NCBI RefSeq assembly: GCF_004382795.1
Contig: NZ_SMSG01000001.1
Span: forward strand, 434,001 to 498,000
DNA from: Cumulibacter soli
GTDB lineage: Bacteria; Actinomycetota; Actinomycetes; Mycobacteriales; Antricoccaceae
Direction of reading: 5' to 3'
DNA: 64,000 nucleotides
This document shows, one piece after another, positions 50,352 through 63,960 of this stretch. Numbering within the stretch: position 1 is the first letter of the stretch; the number at the start of each line of letters is the position of its first letter. The notes under the pieces are model-generated. The model saw only the letters and a program-made list of their open reading frames with translations. It had not been told where the DNA came from and ran no database searches. Both the position numbers and the translations under genes were made by a program.

Positions 50352-51158
50352 CTAGGAATTGAAGTTCCCGTAGCGTTCGCCGTCGTCCTTACGCCCGGCG
50401 TTCGCATAGATCGCGTCACGCACGTACTGCGCTAGGCCGTCGCGCATGTCGTTATAGGTCTTCGCGAATCGCTCGTCCTGGACGAACATGTCTGCCAGGC
50501 AGCGCTGCATTCCGTAGTCGCAGTCGTAGAACCGCTGCACGCTGGCGCGGTGCATCTCGGCCGCCGCCATCGCTTGTTCGGACGTGGCAGGCAGACCCGA
50601 GTCCCACGCGTCGATGAACGCCTTGTTCAACGCATCGTTCTCCGCCTTGACTGCCTCCCAGTCGGCACGGGTGTAGTTCGCCGTACGCCGCTGGGACTGT
50701 GCCCAAGCTTCGCTGTCGCCCCAACGCTCCTCTGCCTCAGTCTGATAGGACTCCTCGAATCCGTCGCCGAACAACTCCTTCAGGTCGCTCGGACTGAGCT
50801 TCTCGTCGCTCATTTCCTTCTCCAATGCTCGATCAATAGCCTGCACGAGGTCGTTCAACTCGCCCAGGCGGGACATGACCGTTGCGCGCTGACGACGCAG
50901 GTGCTCAGCCGGATCGCTGTCACCGTCCAGCAGTTCCGTGATCTCTTCGAGCGGCATTTCCAGCCGCCGATAGACCACGATCTGCTGTAGCCGCTGCAGA
51001 TCGGCATCGGTGTAGATCCGGTAGCCGGCCGATGTCCGCTCGCTGGGCCGTAACAAGCCGATGTCGTCGTAATGGTGCAGCGTTCGCACCGTTACGCCGA
51101 ACGTCTCGGCCACCTTGCCTACGGTCCAGGCGGTCATCACCTGCGTCCTCTCGGTCAT
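50352..51158 (-). CDS. MerR-family regulator with TipAS domain
   Basis: A 268-residue TipA-like activator. The N-terminal MerR helix-turn-helix is 'VGKVAETFGVTVRTLHHYDDIGLL' type (positions about 13-36) followed by 'RTSAGYRIYTDADL'. A coiled dimer helix spans about 85-120. The C-terminal TipAS antibiotic-binding domain (about 150-268) ends in 'YVRDAIYANA'. Upstream there is CTCACGTCACGGGAGG, matching the known TipA operator in form. The promoter spacing suggests a leaderless transcript that begins at or near the ATG. Confidence 0.9.
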   Translation of the reverse strand: MTERTQVMTAWTVGKVAETFGVTVRTLHHYDDIGLLRPSERTSAGYRIYTDADLQRLQQIVVYRRLEMPLEEITELLDGDSDPAEHLRRQRATVMSRLGELNDLVQAIDRALEKEMSDEKLSPSDLKELFGDGFEESYQTEAEERWGDSEAWAQSQRRTANYTRADWEAVKAENDALNKAFIDAWDSGLPATSEQAMAAAEMHRASVQRFYDCDYGMQRCLADMFVQDERFAKTYNDMRDGLAQYVRDAIYANAGRKDDGERYGNFNS

Positions 51159-52515: not shown

Positions 52516-54027
52516 CTAGGGGTGTTCGGGCTTCACGAAGGGGAACAGGATCGTTTCGCGGATCCCGCGGCCGGTGAACACCTGGAGCATCCGGTCGATC
52601 CCGAGCCCCACACCACCGGTCGGCGGCATGCCGTATTCGAGCGCGCGTAGGAAGTCCTCGTCGACCTGCATGGCCTCGACGTCCCCGCCGGCCCGCTGCG
52701 CCGCCTGCTCGACGAACCGTTCACGCTGAATCACTGGATCGACCAGCTCGGAGTACCCCGTACCGCACTCCATCCCGTCGATGTAGAGGTCCCACTTCTC
52801 CACTACACCCTCGATCGAGCGGTGCGCGCGCACCAGCGGCGAAGTGTCAACCGGGAAATCGCATACGAACACCGGCCCGGCGAGTAACTCCTGACTCGTC
52901 GCTTCGAAAATCTCCTCGAGCACCTTGCCCGCCACCCACGCCGGGTTGACTTTCACCCCGACCTTCTCGGCGACCTGACGCAACTCGTCCAACGACGTCG
53001 CCGGCGTCAGCGGCACCCCGGAGCCCTCCGAAGCCAACTCGTACAGCGAGCGCTTCGGCCATTCCCCTGACAGGTCCCGCACCGAGCCATCCCATCGCTC
53101 GATCTGTAGCGAGCCGACCGCATCAAGCGCGGCCTGCTGGTAGATCTCCCGGGACAGGTCAGCGACGTCGTTGTAGTCGGCGTATGCCTGGTAGTACTCC
53201 AGCATCACGAATTCGGGCGAATGGGTCGAGTCCGCGCCCTCATTGCGGAAGTTTCGGTTGATCTCGAAGACCCTGTCGATTCCACCCACAACACAACGCT
53301 TCAGGTAGAGCTCGGGCGCGATGCGCAGGAACACGTTTTCGTCGTACGCGTTGTAGTACGTCGTGAACGGGCGAGCAGTCGCCCCGCCCTGCACTGCCTG
53401 CAGCATCGGCGTCTCGACTTCGATGAAGTCGCGCTGAGAAAGCGTACGGCGGATCGACGCGATCGCAGCGCCGCGAGTCTCGACCATCTTGCGGGCCTCG
53501 GGACGCACGATGAGGTCGGCGTACCGCTGGCGGATCCGCGTCTCCTCATTCATCGCCTTGTGCGCGACCGGCAGCGGTCGGATCGCCTTAGCGGTGATCG
53601 CCCAGTCATCGGCCATCACCGACAGTTCTCCGCGGCGACTCGTGATGACCTCACCTGTCACGAAGATGTGATCGCCCAGATCGACGTCGGCCTTCCAGCG
53701 CGCCAGCGACTCCTCACCGACACTCGCCAGCGACAGCATCGCCTGGAGTTCGACGCCGCCCTCACGCAACGTCGCGAAGCACAACTTGCCGGTGTTGCGC
53801 ATGAAGATCAGGCGTCCGGTGACGCCAACCTTCTGGCCGGTCTGAGTATCGACGGGCAAATCCGGGTACTTCTCGCGTACGGCGGCCAGCGACGTGGTGC
53901 GATCGACGCCGACGACGTACGGCTCGATGCCGTCGTTCAGCAAGCGGTCGCGCTTTTCGCGGCGAATCCGCAGCTGCTCTGGGAGGTCGTCGTCGGTCAC
54001 GGGTACGTCGTTAGGGTTCTGCGCCAC
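52516..54027 (-). CDS. lysS: Lysyl-tRNA synthetase (class II)
   Basis: A 503-residue class II lysyl-tRNA synthetase. The N-terminal OB-fold ('KVGVTGRLIFMRNTGKLCF') is followed by motif 1 'FIEVETPML', motif 2 'FRNEGADSTHSPEF' near residue 275 and motif 3 'GVGLGIDRMLQVFTG' near 475. GTG 54027 is chosen because AAGG lies 8 nt upstream; the longer frame adds an unrelated Arg-rich N-terminus. In mycobacteria lysS lies a few genes from clpC; here about 37 kb separate them. Confidence 0.95.
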   Translation of the reverse strand: MAQNPNDVPVTDDDLPEQLRIRREKRDRLLNDGIEPYVVGVDRTTSLAAVREKYPDLPVDTQTGQKVGVTGRLIFMRNTGKLCFATLREGGVELQAMLSLASVGEESLARWKADVDLGDHIFVTGEVITSRRGELSVMADDWAITAKAIRPLPVAHKAMNEETRIRQRYADLIVRPEARKMVETRGAAIASIRRTLSQRDFIEVETPMLQAVQGGATARPFTTYYNAYDENVFLRIAPELYLKRCVVGGIDRVFEINRNFRNEGADSTHSPEFVMLEYYQAYADYNDVADLSREIYQQAALDAVGSLQIERWDGSVRDLSGEWPKRSLYELASEGSGVPLTPATSLDELRQVAEKVGVKVNPAWVAGKVLEEIFEATSQELLAGPVFVCDFPVDTSPLVRAHRSIEGVVEKWDLYIDGMECGTGYSELVDPVIQRERFVEQAAQRAGGDVEAMQVDEDFLRALEYGMPPTGGVGLGIDRMLQVFTGRGIRETILFPFVKPEHP

Positions 54028-54143
54028 GGCAAGCACCTTACTCGGCGCTATGAAAGCCGGGGAATCGTAGCGGCGATGCTTGGAACCATCGCACCTCTGG
54101 CGGCATCCTGGTATCGAGAACACAGGACGACGAAGGAGTCGAT

Positions 54144-54572
54144 ATGCGGATGGCACTGATGGTGATCGGCTGGGTTGTATTCGTGGCGGGCGCGGGAATG
54201 CTCATCCTGCTCATCGCCGACGGCACCGGCAAAACAGACAGTCAGGTGTTGGCAAACCCGTCCGCGGGCATCATGGTCGCCGGAGCCATCCTCGTGCTGG
54301 CCGGTGTCCTCAGCGGCCGAGCGTCGACACCCACGACGCTCGGCATGAGCCAGCCGTACGCCCCACCCGCGCCGCCGCAGCCGACGTCGGCCCCGATCGC
54401 CGGAGCACCGTCCCCAGCTCTGGGACAGCAGCCCGGCGCAGCAATCAGCGGGATGCAGCCTGGCACTGGGGCTCAGCCGGTTAGCGGAGTTCAGCCCACC
54501 AGCGGCCCGAGCACAGGCCAGCAACCCACCAGCGGTCAGCAGTTCGGGCAATCCGGCGGATTCGGCAACTAG
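54144..54572 (+). CDS. Small membrane protein with Pro/Gln-rich tail
   Basis: A 142-residue protein with two hydrophobic helices (about residues 4-26 and 41-58) and a long low-complexity C-terminal tail. The tail repeats short Pro/Gly/Gln words such as 'QPTSGP', 'QQPTSGQQ' and 'QPGTGAQPVSG'. AAGGAG precedes the ATG. No family is recognised; such proteins are common in actinobacteria. It is divergent from lysS and convergent with the acetyltransferase, with a hairpin between. Confidence 0.75.
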   Translation: MRMALMVIGWVVFVAGAGMLILLIADGTGKTDSQVLANPSAGIMVAGAILVLAGVLSGRASTPTTLGMSQPYAPPAPPQPTSAPIAGAPSPALGQQPGAAISGMQPGTGAQPVSGVQPTSGPSTGQQPTSGQQFGQSGGFGN

Positions 54573-57545: not shown

Positions 57546-57665
57546 AGATGGCCTAATTGTTCGATTCATATCGATATAATTAGACACGTCTCGCCCTCCC
57601 CCTCGCGATGAGCCGACGCGCCATAATGAAGTTCCCGTAACTCAACCTTGGAGCCCGGCCCGTCA
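57546..57665 (+). promoter_or_regulatory. A+T-rich promoter region of peptide synthetase
   Basis: This spacer is strikingly A+T-rich. A perfect TATAAT lies at 57575-57580. It sits in a broken dyad: CTAATT at 57553-57558 pairs with AATTAG at 57578-57583, and inside it TCGAT (57561-57565) pairs with ATCGA (57570-57574). A regulator bound there would cover the -10. A clear -35 was not found. Confidence 0.55.
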
Positions 57666-60600
57666 ATGTCTAGCCTCCTGCGCGGCCATCTTCGACCCGA
57701 CGAACGCACCCTGGTCGACGTCCTTTACGCCACCGCACAGGCCCATCCCGGCAAGCCCGCGCTCGACGACGGTGACACCGTCCTGTCCTATAGCGAATTG
57801 ATCTCGCAGGCCGAGCGGATCGCTGCCGGATTACATGCTCGCGGCGTACGCCGAGGCTCGCGCGTGGGTGTACGCATCACCTCCGGTACTCGCGAGCTCT
57901 ACCTCGCGATCGTCGGCATCCTGATCGCCGGCGCCGCATACGTTCCCATTGACGCCGACGATCCGGACGAGCGCGCCGAACTGGTCTTCGGGCAGGCCGA
58001 GGTGGACGCCGTACTCGATTCGATCGAGGGTGTCCACGAACTACTGCACAGCGCAGGGCCCGCTCCCGAACGACCGGGGCTGGACGACGACTGCTGGATC
58101 ATCTTTACCTCCGGCTCCACCGGCATGCCCAAAGGTGTCGCCGTCCAGCACCGCTCTGGCGCGGCGTTTGTGGACGCCGAAGCCCAGATGTTCCTGCAGA
58201 GCGAGCCCATCGGTCCGCACGATCGGGTACTCGCCGGTTTGTCCGTGGCCTTCGATGCCTCGTGCGAGGAGATGTGGCTGGCGTGGCGGTACGGCGCTGC
58301 GCTTGTGCCCGCTCCGCGAGCGCTGGTCCGCACCGGCGCGGACCTCGGCCCGTGGTTGACCAATCGCGACATCACGATCGTGTCGACCGTCCCCACTCTG
58401 GCGGCACTGTGGCCGGCCGAAACTCTCGAGGACATCCGGCTGCTGATCTTCGGCGGCGAAGCCTGCCCGCCCGAACTCGCCGCGCGCCTGGTCACCGAGG
58501 GCCGCGAGGTCTGGAACACCTACGGACCGACCGAAGCGACCGTCGTGGCCTGCGGCGCACAGTTGACTGGCGAACCACCGATCCGAATCGGCCTCCCGCT
58601 GGACGGCTGGGACCTCGAGGTCGTCGGCCCCGACGACCAGCCCGTCGCCGAAGGCGAGACCGGAGAACTCATCATCGGCGGCGTCGGCCTCGCGCGCTAT
58701 CTCGATCCCGTCAAAGACGCAGAGAAGTACATTGCGATGCCGACCCTGGGATGGGATCGCGCCTACCGCTCGGGCGATCTCGTCGTCCGCGACGAAGAAG
58801 GCCTGTTGTTCGTCGGTCGCGCCGACGAACAGATCAAACTCGGCGGCCGCCGCATCGAATTGGGCGAGGTCGATTCGGCACTGCAGGCGCTCGACGGTGT
58901 GCAAGGTGCCGCGGCTGCCGTCAAACAAACACCCACCGGCAACCAGCTCCTCGTGGGGTACGTTGTACCGCACGAGGGCTTCGACCCCGCGGTGGCGCGC
59001 GAACGCCTTCAGCAAGAACTCCCGTCCGCCTTGGTGCCGCTGATTGCCGTGGTCGAGGACTTACCGACGCGTACGTCCGGCAAGGTCGACCGCAACGCGC
59101 TGCCCTGGCCGCTACCGGACATGGGTGCTGACGACGAGGTCGAACAACTCGACCGCACCGCGGGGTGGGTCGCTGAAATGTTCGGCAAGGTGCTGGGCGT
59201 GACGCCGTCCGGCCGCGGGTTCGATTTCTTCGCGCACGGCGGTGGCAGCCTCACCGCCGCCCAGTTGATCAGCCAATTGCGCTCGCGATTCCCCGAGGTC
59301 ACCGTGGCCGATCTATATGGCCAACCGAGCGTCGGCGCGATGGCTGACTTCCTGGACTCGCGTACGCGCGCGCTACAACCCAGTAGCCGCCGCGAGCACG
59401 TCGAGCCGACCAGGCTGCGCACTCAACTGCTGCAGGTTGGCCTCAGCATCGCGATCAACACCGTCGCCGGCCTCCGCTGGGTGGTAGTCCTGCTGTTGCT
59501 GACGAACATCGCCGGCGGGCTGGGCGGGCTCGACCTGCCACATGTCTCCTGGTGGTTCGTCGGTTCGGCCGCCGTTGTGCTGCTTACCCCGTTCGGACGG
59601 ATGCTGTTGGCAGCCGGCGGCATCCGGCTGCTGCTGCGCAATGCGCACCCCGGCGTGTATCCGCGCGGCGGGCGGATACACATCAAACTGTGGGCAGCCG
59701 AACGGCTCGCCGATGCAGTCGGGGCGATCAACCTCGCGGGCGCACCGTGGATCGCGTACTACGCACGTGCGCTGGGCTGCACGATCGGTAAGAATGTCGA
59801 TCTGCACTCGCTACCGCCGGTTACCGGCCTGCTCACGCTCGGCAAGCAGTGTTCGATCGAACCCGAGGTCGATCTATCCGGCTATTGGATCGATGGCGAT
59901 ACGTTGCACATCGGGGAGATCATTGTCGGCGCCCGCGCCAGCGTCGGATCCCGTTCGCATCTGGCCGGCGGCGCGGCCATCGGCAAGGACTCCGATATCG
60001 CGCCCGGTTCGGCCGTATTCGGCGACGTTCCACCCGGGGAGTACTGGAGCGGCTCCCCCGCGAAACGCAAATCCCGCGTGCGCCATCCGTGGCCCGAAGA
60101 ACGACCGTCGTCGAACAAGTTTTGGCTCGGCGTGTACGCCGTGTCCTCGGTCGCGTTGTCGCTAATCCCGGTGATCAGCGCGGCGCTCGCGCTGCTGATC
60201 GTGCACGCGATCATCGGTGACGCATCGACGTGGGGCGCGATCATCGACCGCACGCTGCTAGCGGTCCCGGCCGCGGCTGCGGCCGGGTTCGTGCTGCTGG
60301 CCGCCCTGACGCTGATCACGGTGCGGACGCTGGGCTGGCTAATTTCCGAGGGCACCTACCCGGTACGGAGCCGGGTCGGCTGGGCCGCCTGGGCGACCGA
60401 GCGGACCTTGGACGCCGCCCGCACCTACCTGTTCCCGATCTACGCCAGCCTATTTACGCCTGGTTGGCTGCGGCTCCTCGGCGCGAAGGTGGGTAAGAAC
60501 GTCGAGGCGTCGACCGTGCTGTTGATTCCGAAGTTGGCACAGGTCCGCGACGGCGCTTTCCTCGCCGACGACACGATGATCGCCTCGTACGAACTCGGCG

Positions 60601-61523
60601 GCGGATGGATGCGGCTGAACAAGGTGAAGATCGGCAAGCGCGCCTTCATCGGAAACTCCGGTATGGCCGGCGGCGGGCACAACGTATCGAAAAACAGCCT
60701 GGTGGCGGTGCTCTCGGTCGCGCCGACGAAGTCCAAAGCAGGTACGTCGTGGCTGGGCAGCCCGCCGGTGAAGCTTCCCCGTAACGCCCAAGATGTCGAC
60801 AAGACGCTGACTCATAAGCCATCCAAGCAGCTCAAGATCAAGCGCGGCCTGGTCGAACTGTGTCGCGCGATCCCGGTGATGGTCACCGTAGCGATCGCGT
60901 TCGGTGTCCTGCTCGCATTGGCGTGGCTCTGGGCGACGTTCGCGCTATGGGTCGCCTTCCTACTATCCGGTGCCGTCCTGGCGGTCGCGGGAGCAGCCGC
61001 CGCCGCAATCACCACCCTGGCGAAGTGGCTTGTCGTGGGTCGGATCGGACAGATCGAGCGACCGCTGTGGTCGTCCTTCGTGTGGCGTAACGAGGTGGTC
61101 GATGCATTCGTCGAGCTCGTCGCCGCACCCTGGTTCGCGATGCCGGCGACTGGTACACCGCTGCTGAATATCTGGCTGCGTTCGATCGGCGCAAAGATTG
61201 GCCGCGGTGTGTGGTGTGAGTCGTACTGGTTGCCCGAAGCCGACCTGGTCACCCTGGACGCCGGCTCCACAGTCAACCGCGGCTGCGTGGTGCAGACCCA
61301 CCTGTTTCACGATCGCGTGATGTCCATGGACACGGTGCACCTCGCGCCTGGCGCCACCCTCGGCCCGAACAGCGTTATCCTGCCCGCAGCCGCCATCGAC
61401 GAAGCCGCGACCGTCGGTCCCGCGTCACTGGTGATGCGGGGCGAAAGCGTTCCGGCCGGGTCACTGTGGCAAGGTAACCCGATCGGCCCTTGGTCGAAAA
61501 ACATCCCCGCACTGAAGGACTGA
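57666..61523 (+). CDS. Pls/PosA-type single-module peptide synthetase
   Basis: A 1285-residue membrane peptide synthetase of the Pls/PosA family. The adenylation domain (about 20-480) shows 'TSGSTGMPKG', 'FDASCEE', 'NTYGPTEATV' and 'GRADEQIKLGGRR'. The carrier domain has its phosphopantetheine Ser in 'HGGGSL' near 527. There is no condensation or thioesterase domain; instead about six membrane helices alternate with three hexapeptide-repeat (left-handed helix) domains near 700-805, 940-1045 and 1165-1280. This layout equals that of epsilon-poly-lysine synthetase, about 1300 residues. Pocket residues read DAESIGTVVK. ATG 57666 is preferred to TTG 57648. Confidence 0.9.
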   Translation: MSSLLRGHLRPDERTLVDVLYATAQAHPGKPALDDGDTVLSYSELISQAERIAAGLHARGVRRGSRVGVRITSGTRELYLAIVGILIAGAAYVPIDADDPDERAELVFGQAEVDAVLDSIEGVHELLHSAGPAPERPGLDDDCWIIFTSGSTGMPKGVAVQHRSGAAFVDAEAQMFLQSEPIGPHDRVLAGLSVAFDASCEEMWLAWRYGAALVPAPRALVRTGADLGPWLTNRDITIVSTVPTLAALWPAETLEDIRLLIFGGEACPPELAARLVTEGREVWNTYGPTEATVVACGAQLTGEPPIRIGLPLDGWDLEVVGPDDQPVAEGETGELIIGGVGLARYLDPVKDAEKYIAMPTLGWDRAYRSGDLVVRDEEGLLFVGRADEQIKLGGRRIELGEVDSALQALDGVQGAAAAVKQTPTGNQLLVGYVVPHEGFDPAVARERLQQELPSALVPLIAVVEDLPTRTSGKVDRNALPWPLPDMGADDEVEQLDRTAGWVAEMFGKVLGVTPSGRGFDFFAHGGGSLTAAQLISQLRSRFPEVTVADLYGQPSVGAMADFLDSRTRALQPSSRREHVEPTRLRTQLLQVGLSIAINTVAGLRWVVVLLLLTNIAGGLGGLDLPHVSWWFVGSAAVVLLTPFGRMLLAAGGIRLLLRNAHPGVYPRGGRIHIKLWAAERLADAVGAINLAGAPWIAYYARALGCTIGKNVDLHSLPPVTGLLTLGKQCSIEPEVDLSGYWIDGDTLHIGEIIVGARASVGSRSHLAGGAAIGKDSDIAPGSAVFGDVPPGEYWSGSPAKRKSRVRHPWPEERPSSNKFWLGVYAVSSVALSLIPVISAALALLIVHAIIGDASTWGAIIDRTLLAVPAAAAAGFVLLAALTLITVRTLGWLISEGTYPVRSRVGWAAWATERTLDAARTYLFPIYASLFTPGWLRLLGAKVGKNVEASTVLLIPKLAQVRDGAFLADDTMIASYELGGGWMRLNKVKIGKRAFIGNSGMAGGGHNVSKNSLVAVLSVAPTKSKAGTSWLGSPPVKLPRNAQDVDKTLTHKPSKQLKIKRGLVELCRAIPVMVTVAIAFGVLLALAWLWATFALWVAFLLSGAVLAVAGAAAAAITTLAKWLVVGRIGQIERPLWSSFVWRNEVVDAFVELVAAPWFAMPATGTPLLNIWLRSIGAKIGRGVWCESYWLPEADLVTLDAGSTVNRGCVVQTHLFHDRVMSMDTVHLAPGATLGPNSVILPAAAIDEAATVGPASLVMRGESVPAGSLWQGNPIGPWSKNIPALKD

Positions 61524-61526
61524 CGC

Positions 61527-62867
61527 TTGACCTCGCGAGTGCCCCACACCGGCGCCGACTCCGCAGGAGACCCCTACACTCCCGACCGCGGCAATGGTGG
61601 ATACGAGGTCACGTCGTACTACCTGGACCTGCGCTACCGAGTGCCGTCCAACAACCTGCGGGCGCTCGCCGCGATCTCGGTCCGCGCGACCCAGCCCTTG
61701 GACAAACTCACCCTCGACCTCGTCGGATTGTCGGTATCGAAAGTCATGGTGGGCGGACGCCGAGCGAAACGGTTCACCGTGCGCCGCGGCAAACTCGCCA
61801 TCTCCCTGCCCGCGCGGCTCGAGGCCGGCACGTCGGTCACCCTGGAGATCACGTACGGCGGGAATCCCACGCCGGCCCGATCGACGTGGGGCATCCTCGG
61901 CTGGGAGGAACTCAACGACGGTGTGCTCGTCGCGAGTCAACCGACTGGGGCCCCGACCTGGTTCCCGTGCAACGATCACCCCGCGAGCAAGGCGTCCTAC
62001 CGATTCCAGATCACCACGGATTCGCCGTACACCGTGGTCGCGAACGGGAAACTGGTCTCCCATCACGCGTCCGGTTCGATGGCGACCTGGGTGTATCAAC
62101 AGGACGAACCGATGGCGTCCTACCTGGCGACGGTGTATATCGCACGCGTGCCGTGGACGGCCGTCGAGTCCGGGGCAAGCACCGTGCGCCAAACGGCCGT
62201 CGTACCGCTGAATCTGAACAAGGCTTTCGCGCACGACTTCGGTCGGCAGCACGAAATGATGGCGCTGTTCGAGCGGCTGTTCGGCCCGTATCCCTTTGCC
62301 GAGTACCGCGTCCTGGTGACAGACGACGAACTCGAGATTCCGCTGGAATCACAGGGCATGTCGACGTTCGGTCGTAATCATGTGGATGGGCGCAGTGGTT
62401 CTGACCGGCTGATCGCGCATGAACTGGCGCATCAATGGTTCGGAAATTCGGTCGGGTTGGCCTCCTGGCAGCACATCTGGCTGAACGAGGGCTTTGCCTG
62501 CTACTGCGAGTGGTTGTGGGCCGAGTACGCCGGACACGACACCGCTGACGCGCTGGCGCGCCGCTACCACCGCCGACTGAGTTCGTCGAAACAAGACCTG
62601 CTACTGGGCGATCCCGGCCCGCAAGACATGTTCGACGATCGGGTGTATAAACGCGGCGCGCTGACCCTGCACGCGCTACGACTGCAGGTCGGGGACGCCG
62701 GATTCTTCGACTTGATCCGCGAGTGGTGCCAACGGCACGCGCTGAGCACCGTCACCACAGCACTCTTCGTCGATCTGGTGCGGACCCGACTCGGCGATCA
62801 TGCTGCTGACGCGCTGCACCCGTGGCTGTTCGAGACCAACTTGCCGGCCCTTCCGAGGCGCGCCTAG
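61527..62867 (+). CDS. M1-family metallopeptidase
   Basis: A 446-residue M1 zinc aminopeptidase. The metal site 'HELAHQWFGN' (about residues 298-307) is followed after 18 residues by the ligand Glu in 'NEGFA'. The GAMEN exopeptidase motif is replaced by 'LESQGMSTFG', as in a subset of the family. It is short (no long C-terminal helical domain). TTG 61527 lies 3 nt after the synthetase stop, with GAAGGA upstream, so the two are cotranscribed. It may trim or degrade the synthetase product. Confidence 0.9.
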   Translation: MTSRVPHTGADSAGDPYTPDRGNGGYEVTSYYLDLRYRVPSNNLRALAAISVRATQPLDKLTLDLVGLSVSKVMVGGRRAKRFTVRRGKLAISLPARLEAGTSVTLEITYGGNPTPARSTWGILGWEELNDGVLVASQPTGAPTWFPCNDHPASKASYRFQITTDSPYTVVANGKLVSHHASGSMATWVYQQDEPMASYLATVYIARVPWTAVESGASTVRQTAVVPLNLNKAFAHDFGRQHEMMALFERLFGPYPFAEYRVLVTDDELEIPLESQGMSTFGRNHVDGRSGSDRLIAHELAHQWFGNSVGLASWQHIWLNEGFACYCEWLWAEYAGHDTADALARRYHRRLSSSKQDLLLGDPGPQDMFDDRVYKRGALTLHALRLQVGDAGFFDLIREWCQRHALSTVTTALFVDLVRTRLGDHAADALHPWLFETNLPALPRRA

Positions 62868-62871
62868 CGCT

Positions 62872-62905
62872 CAGAGCGTGCCGGCGTTCAGAGCGTGCCG
62901 GCGTT
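62872..62905. repeat. 17-bp tandem duplication
   Basis: CAGAGCGTGCCGGCGTT is present twice in tandem between the M1 peptidase stop and the last codons of the convergent YihY/BrkB-type gene. It is a simple slippage-type duplication. Confidence 0.7.
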
Positions 62906-63960
62906 CAGGCTCGTTCGGCTTCACGGGCTCGGCGTCGCGCGATCGCTCGAGCTCGGATATCGCTGTCCTGCCGTAGTTCCCGGCTGGAGGCGATCACCTC
63001 GCGTCGGGCAGCGGCCTGCTTGTCGCTGACGGAGGTCCCCTTCGGCTCCAATTGGATCTTCTTCTCGGCCTTGATCCCCGCCTGCAGTTGCCTCGCGCGC
63101 ACCACCTCGGCGTCCACGACCCCACCGAACAACAACGCGAGGTTGGTCAGCCAGATCCAGAGCAGGAAGATGATCACGCCGGCCAGCGACCCGTAGGTCT
63201 TGTTGTAGTTGCCGAAGTTGCCGATATAGAAAGCCAACCCGGCGGATGCAGCGATCCAGATCAACAAGGCGATCGCGGCACCGAGGCTCAACCAGCGAAA
63301 CCGCGGCTGACGGACGTTGGGCGTGATGTAGTACAACAGCGCAACCATGAGGATCACGACGAACAGGATCACCGGCAGCTTGACGATGTTCCAGGTGTCG
63401 ACGGCCTCCTGACCAAGGTTGATCGCGTCACCAACCTCGCGCGCCAGCGACCCGCTCATCACGGCGCTGAACACGACGAACGCCGCGCCAGCGACCATCA
63501 CCATCGTCACCACGTACATGACGACCCGCAAACCGATCGACGCTCGACCTTCGTCAACCTCGTAGATCCGGTTCATCGCCCGGCCGAACCCGCGAATGTA
63601 CGCCGAGGCCGACCAGAGCGCGCCGAGCACACCGATGACGAGCGTCAATCCAGCGCCCTGAGACTCGGTCAACTGCACGATGATTGGCTTGAGCGTCTCA
63701 CCCATATCACCGGAGGCGAACTGATCAACGAGGTCGACGACGGCGTTCGTCGTTGACTCGCCGCTGGATACCACGCCAAGGATCGATAGCAACGCCAGCA
63801 GAGCGGGGAAGATCGCCAACACCGAGTAGTACGTGAGCCCCGCCGCTAGATCGGTGCACTCGTGTCGCCCGAACTCGTGGATGGCACGTTTGAAACCGTT
63901 TCGCCACGCTGCGCGGCGAAGTTGCCCCTTGGTCATCGGTGTCGGGCGCCGTACGCCCAC
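62905..63960 (-). CDS. YihY/virulence factor BrkB family membrane protein
   Basis: A 351-residue membrane protein of the YihY/BrkB family, with the entry motif 'DLAAGLTYYSVLAIFPALLAL' (core 'GLTYYSVLAIFP') and about six helices, followed by a charged Arg-rich C-terminal tail (about 300-351). The reading frame stays open to the end of the window beyond GTG 63960, so the true start may lie outside; ATG 63936 is an internal alternative. Function is not established; the name RNase BN is historical. Confidence 0.88.
   Translation of the reverse strand: MGVRRPTPMTKGQLRRAAWRNGFKRAIHEFGRHECTDLAAGLTYYSVLAIFPALLALLSILGVVSSGESTTNAVVDLVDQFASGDMGETLKPIIVQLTESQGAGLTLVIGVLGALWSASAYIRGFGRAMNRIYEVDEGRASIGLRVVMYVVTMVMVAGAAFVVFSAVMSGSLAREVGDAINLGQEAVDTWNIVKLPVILFVVILMVALLYYITPNVRQPRFRWLSLGAAIALLIWIAASAGLAFYIGNFGNYNKTYGSLAGVIIFLLWIWLTNLALLFGGVVDAEVVRARQLQAGIKAEKKIQLEPKGTSVSDKQAAARREVIASSRELRQDSDIRARAIARRRAREAERA

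Follow-up and report, generated by a model that had tools for sequence, protein, structure and literature searches.

The window analysed here is a stretch of 64,000 nucleotides from Cumulibacter soli (contig NZ_SMSG01000001.1, positions 434,001 to 498,000 of the forward strand), and it carries a gene, named pls below, which very probably encodes an epsilon-poly-L-lysine (epsilon-PL) synthetase and stands in a tight pair with a gene for a pldII-type peptidase. We put the probability of this reading at roughly 0.87. Epsilon-PL is a polymer used as a food preservative. The features of the pair are as follows.

57666..61523, + strand: pls, homopolymer synthetase of the Pls/PosA family, 1285 amino acids, TIGR02353, start ATG 57666
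57729..59084, + strand: adenylation (A) domain, made up of AMP-binding (57729-58697; PF00501, 204.5 bits) and AMP-binding_C (58866-59084; PF13193, 27 bits)
58254..59084, + strand: pocket codons DAESIGTVVK, from alignment to 1AMU and 7WEW, with 5/5 lysine contacts of 7WEW
59166..59354, + strand: carrier domain (peptidyl carrier protein), PF00550, 37.5 bits
59433..61484, + strand: C-terminal polymerisation region with six hydrophobic segments and beta-helix segments, from TIGR02353, hydropathy and an AlphaFold model
61515..61519, + strand: AAGGA within the end of pls, read from the sequence as a possible ribosome-binding site for the peptidase gene
61527..62867, + strand: pldII-like metallopeptidase of the M1 family, 446 amino acids, PF01433 (93.6 bits) and PF17900 (62.4 bits), with an assumed TTG start

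The reading frame of pls is also open from a TTG at 57648 (1291 amino acids), and a relative (L009) has methionine where ATG 57666 lies; ATG 57666 is the best start. The protein scored 714.5 bits against TIGR02353, for which the cut-off is 423.1. Pfam found only AMP-binding, AMP-binding_C, PP-binding and Hexapep in it, and no condensation, epimerisation or thioesterase domain. Ser528 (codon 59247-59249, in GGGSL) is, by analogy with the family, presumably the phosphopantetheine serine. Hydropathy peaks above 1.6 after residue 590 gave six segments in three pairs (595-613/631-649, 828-846/859-877 and 1068-1086/1106-1124), which is a family trait of Pls, where six transmembrane segments set three tandem domains apart, and the six are helices in the AlphaFold model; a seventh peak, at 77-95, lies inside the A domain and was left out of the six. 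Covering the C-terminal 715 residues, this model (predicted local distance difference test score [pLDDT] 81.9 and predicted template-modelling score 0.86, with the remaining four models at 68-73) has paired long helices and then strand-rich segments, the third of which resembles hexapeptide acetyltransferases (maltose O-acetyltransferases, Z 12.7, root-mean-square deviation [rmsd] 3.0 over 138 residues). This predicted fold agrees with the model published for PosA, the delta-poly-L-ornithine synthetase of Acinetobacter baumannii, in which three left-handed beta-helices stand above six membrane helices according to the available part of PMC10522769. There is no second synthetase copy in the genome by these searches: of 45 matches only the one to the window's own gene extends past query residue 590, and there was one TIGR02353 match.

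The substrate pocket was the subject of the original prediction, which had aligned the A domain by eye to GrsA, read the code DAESIGTVVK within 58245-59100 and likened it to lysine codes. Using MAFFT, we aligned the window protein to two A domains of known structure, those of GrsA (PDB 1AMU) and of Streptomyces albulus Pls (PDB 7WEW), and this alignment confirmed each residue of the code, with all ten codons inside that interval. The window has D, A, E, S, I, G, T, V, V and K at GrsA positions 235, 236, 239, 278, 299, 301, 322, 330, 331 and 517, which are D197, A198, E201, S240, I261, G263, T285, V293, V294 and K473 of the window protein (numbered from ATG 57666) and have their first codon bases at 58254, 58257, 58266, 58383, 58446, 58452, 58518, 58542, 58545 and 59082. 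In the same alignment 7WEW also has D A E S I G T V V K, which meant agreement with the window at 10/10 positions, and GrsA has D A W T I A A I C K. The window and 7WEW aligned without gaps across the first nine pocket positions (in the alignment as inspected from about GrsA 225 on), the outer pocket shell agreed at 27/31 positions, and the A domains were identical at 308/484 residues, so chance agreement is not at issue.

According to the available part of a review (PMC11253843), the Pls A domain binds the amine and carbonyl groups with D213 and K495, and its epsilon-amino contacts are E217, T301 and S256. All five of these residues, the reported contacts of lysine-AMP, are conserved in the window, including the acidic residue at GrsA position 239, which the original prediction had noted as fitting a positively charged side chain. 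The lysine-type pocket is thus supported, on firmer grounds than the prediction had, and the domain would be expected to prefer lysine as its substrate. The prediction had also counted agreement at eight of ten positions with a bacitracin lysine code, DAESIGSVCK; the arithmetic is right if that code is right. For PosA, the closest code homologue is reported to be the lysine-activating module 1 of bacitracin synthetase (PMC10522769, available part). As unbroken words, DAESIGTVVK and DAESIGSVCK had no match in a literature text search, which is uninformative on novelty because PMC10522769 writes its codes with spaces.

A structural comparison pointed the same way for the domain as a whole, and the residue assignment itself stays on the sequence alignment. 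The AlphaFold model of the A domain (pLDDT 86.7) had 7wew as its best PDB match in Foldseek (E 2.9e-66, 64% identity, template-modelling score 0.80, rmsd 5.1 over 481 columns), and the PosA core came at rank 31 (35% identity, rmsd 2.6 over 399 columns). A sequence search of PDB also placed 7wew_A on top with 620 bits, and the next entry reached 361 bits with two stretches summed.

The peptidase TTG sits 3 bases past the pls stop codon, and the protein has a zinc motif, HELAH-x18-E, at residues 298-321. In S. albulus, pldII encodes an aminopeptidase that breaks down epsilon-PL and protects its host; the gene adjoins pls and is said to be translationally coupled to it (PMC9223678, available part). 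The window peptidase is like S. albulus PldII, as described there, in its adjacent position. A pls-peptidase operon is also reported in Corynebacterium variabile and other coryneforms (available part of PMC8117764). By analogy with these systems, the neighbour of pls is most likely an enzyme that degrades the polymer and gives self-protection.

To follow the code and the peptidase among relatives, we used two sets of loci. The named relatives were the best 80 of 586 confirmed stretches found with the patterns D[AC]W[IV]IFTS and SVAFDASC, and together with the window, 13 TIGR02353 loci of the phylum and four loci from protein searches in the genus and family they gave an identical DAESIGTVVK in 98/98, a count which overstates conservation because SVAFDASC fixes code positions 1 and 2. 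An M1 homologue with 48% identity or more lay downstream on the same strand in 84/84 loci besides the window (80 of the 84 pattern-found), and HExxH-x18-E was kept in 85/85 peptidases, the window's included. Some pairs were looser, with the peptidase frame about 2 kb downstream in L060 and hundreds of bases away in L052, L055, L072 and L075.

Because the pattern-found set overstates code conservation, 40 further loci were taken among the order-wide TIGR02353 matches listed; they were hand-picked for spread, not at random, with the code disregarded. Half of them (20) were second copies or had low scores, and the other 20 mostly scored high. Their codes were DAESIGTVVK in 17, DAESVGTVVK in one and codes starting with DFE, that is with Phe at position 2, in 21; the remaining one (L141) was unreadable. 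A close M1 homologue was found downstream in 16/18 lysine-code loci versus 0/21 Phe-code loci, where two weak M1 matches (L122, 28% identity; L132, 26%) were not scored as close. The M1 peptidase thus accompanies the lysine code, and Phe-code relatives are without a close peptidase. Earlier work had already noted that the gene context differs in the other homopolymer synthetases (PMC8117764, available part), so the pairing of code and peptidase extends a known rule and leaves knowledge of the family unchanged. In five loci (L028, L029, L030, L032 and L141) the open reading frame (ORF) with the TIGR02353 C-terminal domain contains no A domain, and such proteins perhaps work with separate A enzymes; the first four gave no code, and in L141 an A-domain-like ORF follows the TIGR02353 ORF, and a code there is meaningless.

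A tree was built from 74 A domains: the window, 7WEW, GrsA, 32 homologues from the set of 97 and, with L141 omitted, 39 of the further loci. GrsA forms a very long branch, and the root serves for drawing only. The two classes separated: one branch (100/99) had the 52 lysine-code rows, including 7WEW and the window, to one side, and a second branch (98/92) did the same for the 21 DFE rows. Three loci of its genus and family, L009, L010 and L011, grouped with the window (100/99), and L012, the fifth family member, stood elsewhere within the lysine group.

Compared with known systems, the window protein is closest to S. albulus Pls, with the pocket, contacts and A-domain identity given above, the same architecture as the papers describe it and an adjoining peptidase gene, where the sequence alignment covers the A domain; unlike it, about 36% of the A-domain residues differ and the window comes from a different lineage. 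It is also like the C. variabile and coryneform Pls by description, in architecture and in the pls-peptidase operon, though its host belongs to another family. The coryneform pockets are identical or highly similar to those of confirmed Pls, and the C. variabile gene, whose product is 51% identical to Streptomyces Pls, yielded epsilon-PL of 26-35 residues in Streptomyces coelicolor (available part of PMC8117764). With PosA (PDB 8G95-8G98) the window protein shares the family, the A domain, the carrier and the membrane region, and also the acidic residue at code position 3; the PosA code differs, reading DMEHNGTVSK, so that position 2 is Met where the window has Ala198. The available part of PMC10522769 gives position 2 as Phe in the synthetases of poly(diaminopropionic acid) (PDAP) and poly(diaminobutyric acid) (PDAB), Met in PosA and Ala in lysine enzymes. 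The Phe-code TIGR02353 members share the family with the window, but they differ in Phe at position 2, in forming a separate tree group and in that a close M1 gene is absent in 21/21 loci while the window has one; judging from their codes, they may make PDAP or PDAB.

Under the epsilon-PL synthetase reading, L-lysine would be activated by the A domain and loaded onto the carrier serine Ser528, and the membrane-borne beta-helix region would then link lysines by isopeptide bonds at the epsilon-amino group, up to the release of the chain. The neighbouring peptidase would trim or degrade the polymer and protect the producer. The lysine-pocket reading of the original prediction is therefore right but stops short, since our results support a Pls-type homopolymer synthetase with a pldII-like gene behind it and no conventional module of a nonribosomal peptide synthetase (NRPS).

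Several results weigh against an epsilon-PL synthetase. The general NCBIfam A-domain model TIGR01733 fell just below its cut-off in pls (315.8 versus 317.4 bits). The A-domain model fits the PosA core more tightly (rmsd 2.6) than the whole of 7wew (5.1), though E-value and identity favour 7wew. The PosA A domain crystal holds L-lysine although the product of PosA is poly-ornithine (PMC10522769, available part), so binding codes are not absolute. Foldseek found nothing for the C-terminal model at E 0.001 or better, and the Z of 12.7 for its third strand-rich segment is a value for which the structure comparison itself gives a warning on repeats. Two of the 18 lysine-code loci, L150 and L151, had no M1 match downstream, and five downstream ORFs scanned there gave no Pfam family, though these ORFs may not be genes. 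Finally, epsilon-PL was undetected in C. variabile itself and in Corynebacterium glutamicum carrying its gene, as far as the available part of PMC8117764 goes, so the presence of the gene is no proof of production. L150 and L151 come from genomes of 2.7 and 2.3 Mb (G555 and G503) of the same order, and the tree as drawn places both at the base of the lysine group.

The distribution of the gene bears on what the polymer may be for. A full-length synthetase relative was found in 5/5 genomes of the family, the window's included (the genus has three genomes and the family five), TIGR02353 matched in 130/298 sampled genomes of the order and 15/296 of the phylum, and among 14 control genomes it matched only in C. 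glutamicum. The pls-peptidase pair is widespread in the order, so there is room for an envelope role, and its wide presence makes such a role, beyond chemical warfare, testable. One alternative, which overlaps the epsilon-PL synthetase reading, is that a lysine-activating Pls-like enzyme makes a short or cell-bound envelope product and not a secreted antimicrobial. The counts in the family and order look like a lineage trait more than a sporadic antibiotic cluster, and the native C. variabile host without detectable polymer suits this alternative too, whereas the 26-35-residue polymers made by its enzyme in S. coelicolor speak against it, as does the pairing with a peptidase, which fits a polymer that needs degradation; on balance we consider it improbable, although well short of negligible. 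An equally tentative extension is that pls-pldII in this and many other non-Streptomyces actinobacteria is a lineage-kept envelope or stress module, in which a lysine polymer may be routinely made and trimmed at the cell surface, and not an antibiotic cluster.

A second alternative is that this member of the Pls family takes a different basic amino acid (ornithine, diaminobutyric acid, diaminopropionic acid, beta-lysine or arginine) as its substrate and makes that homopolymer. Code position 2 is Ala as in the lysine enzymes, not the Met of PosA or the Phe of the PDAP and PDAB synthetases, on the tree the window groups with 7WEW and away from the 21 Phe-code rows, and it has the M1 peptidase that accompanies the lysine code and is missing from the Phe-code loci, so a polymer of ornithine, diaminobutyric acid or diaminopropionic acid is disfavoured by code position 2 and the tree; the comparison covered the enzymes for lysine, ornithine, diaminobutyric acid and diaminopropionic acid, and for the five amino acids together this alternative seems very unlikely. 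The bacitracin likeness hinted at a third, a conventional NRPS lysine module, in whose favour stands the 8/10 agreement with that bacitracin code, if the code is right, but a bacitracin-type module was rejected on domain content, as the condensation domain is absent by Pfam, the C-terminal half is TIGR02353 and 0/8 neighbouring ORFs scanned are NRPS, which leaves it next to no probability. With the epsilon-PL synthetase as the preferred reading, a likely member of this class is added outside the genera usually named.

In a plasmid collection, 34 records had a synthetase relative at E 1e-60 or better and 16 covered at least 80% of its length, with 56% identity in plasmids of Mycobacterium avium and M. 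intracellulare. At 11.85 Mb, at least one of the records listed appears to be a chromosome. Some other genes in the window were also noted. A lysine--tRNA ligase of 546 amino acids lies at 52516-54156 on the - strand, about 3.5 kb upstream of pls (NF001756, 594 bits; the LysX model matched in part, with 652 bits, below its cut-off), and is probably an ordinary lysS; a homologue (76%) is near pls in L115, none was seen in the L113 and L116 stretches, and the L114 stretch starts too near. A membrane protein of the YihY/BrkB family at 62905-63960 on the - strand is convergent with the pls-peptidase pair, and its homologue adjoins the pair in L113 (66%) and L114 (64% identity) and is absent beside the pair in L115 and L116. 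A MerR-type regulator with a TipAS antibiotic-recognition domain is encoded at 50352-51158 on the - strand.
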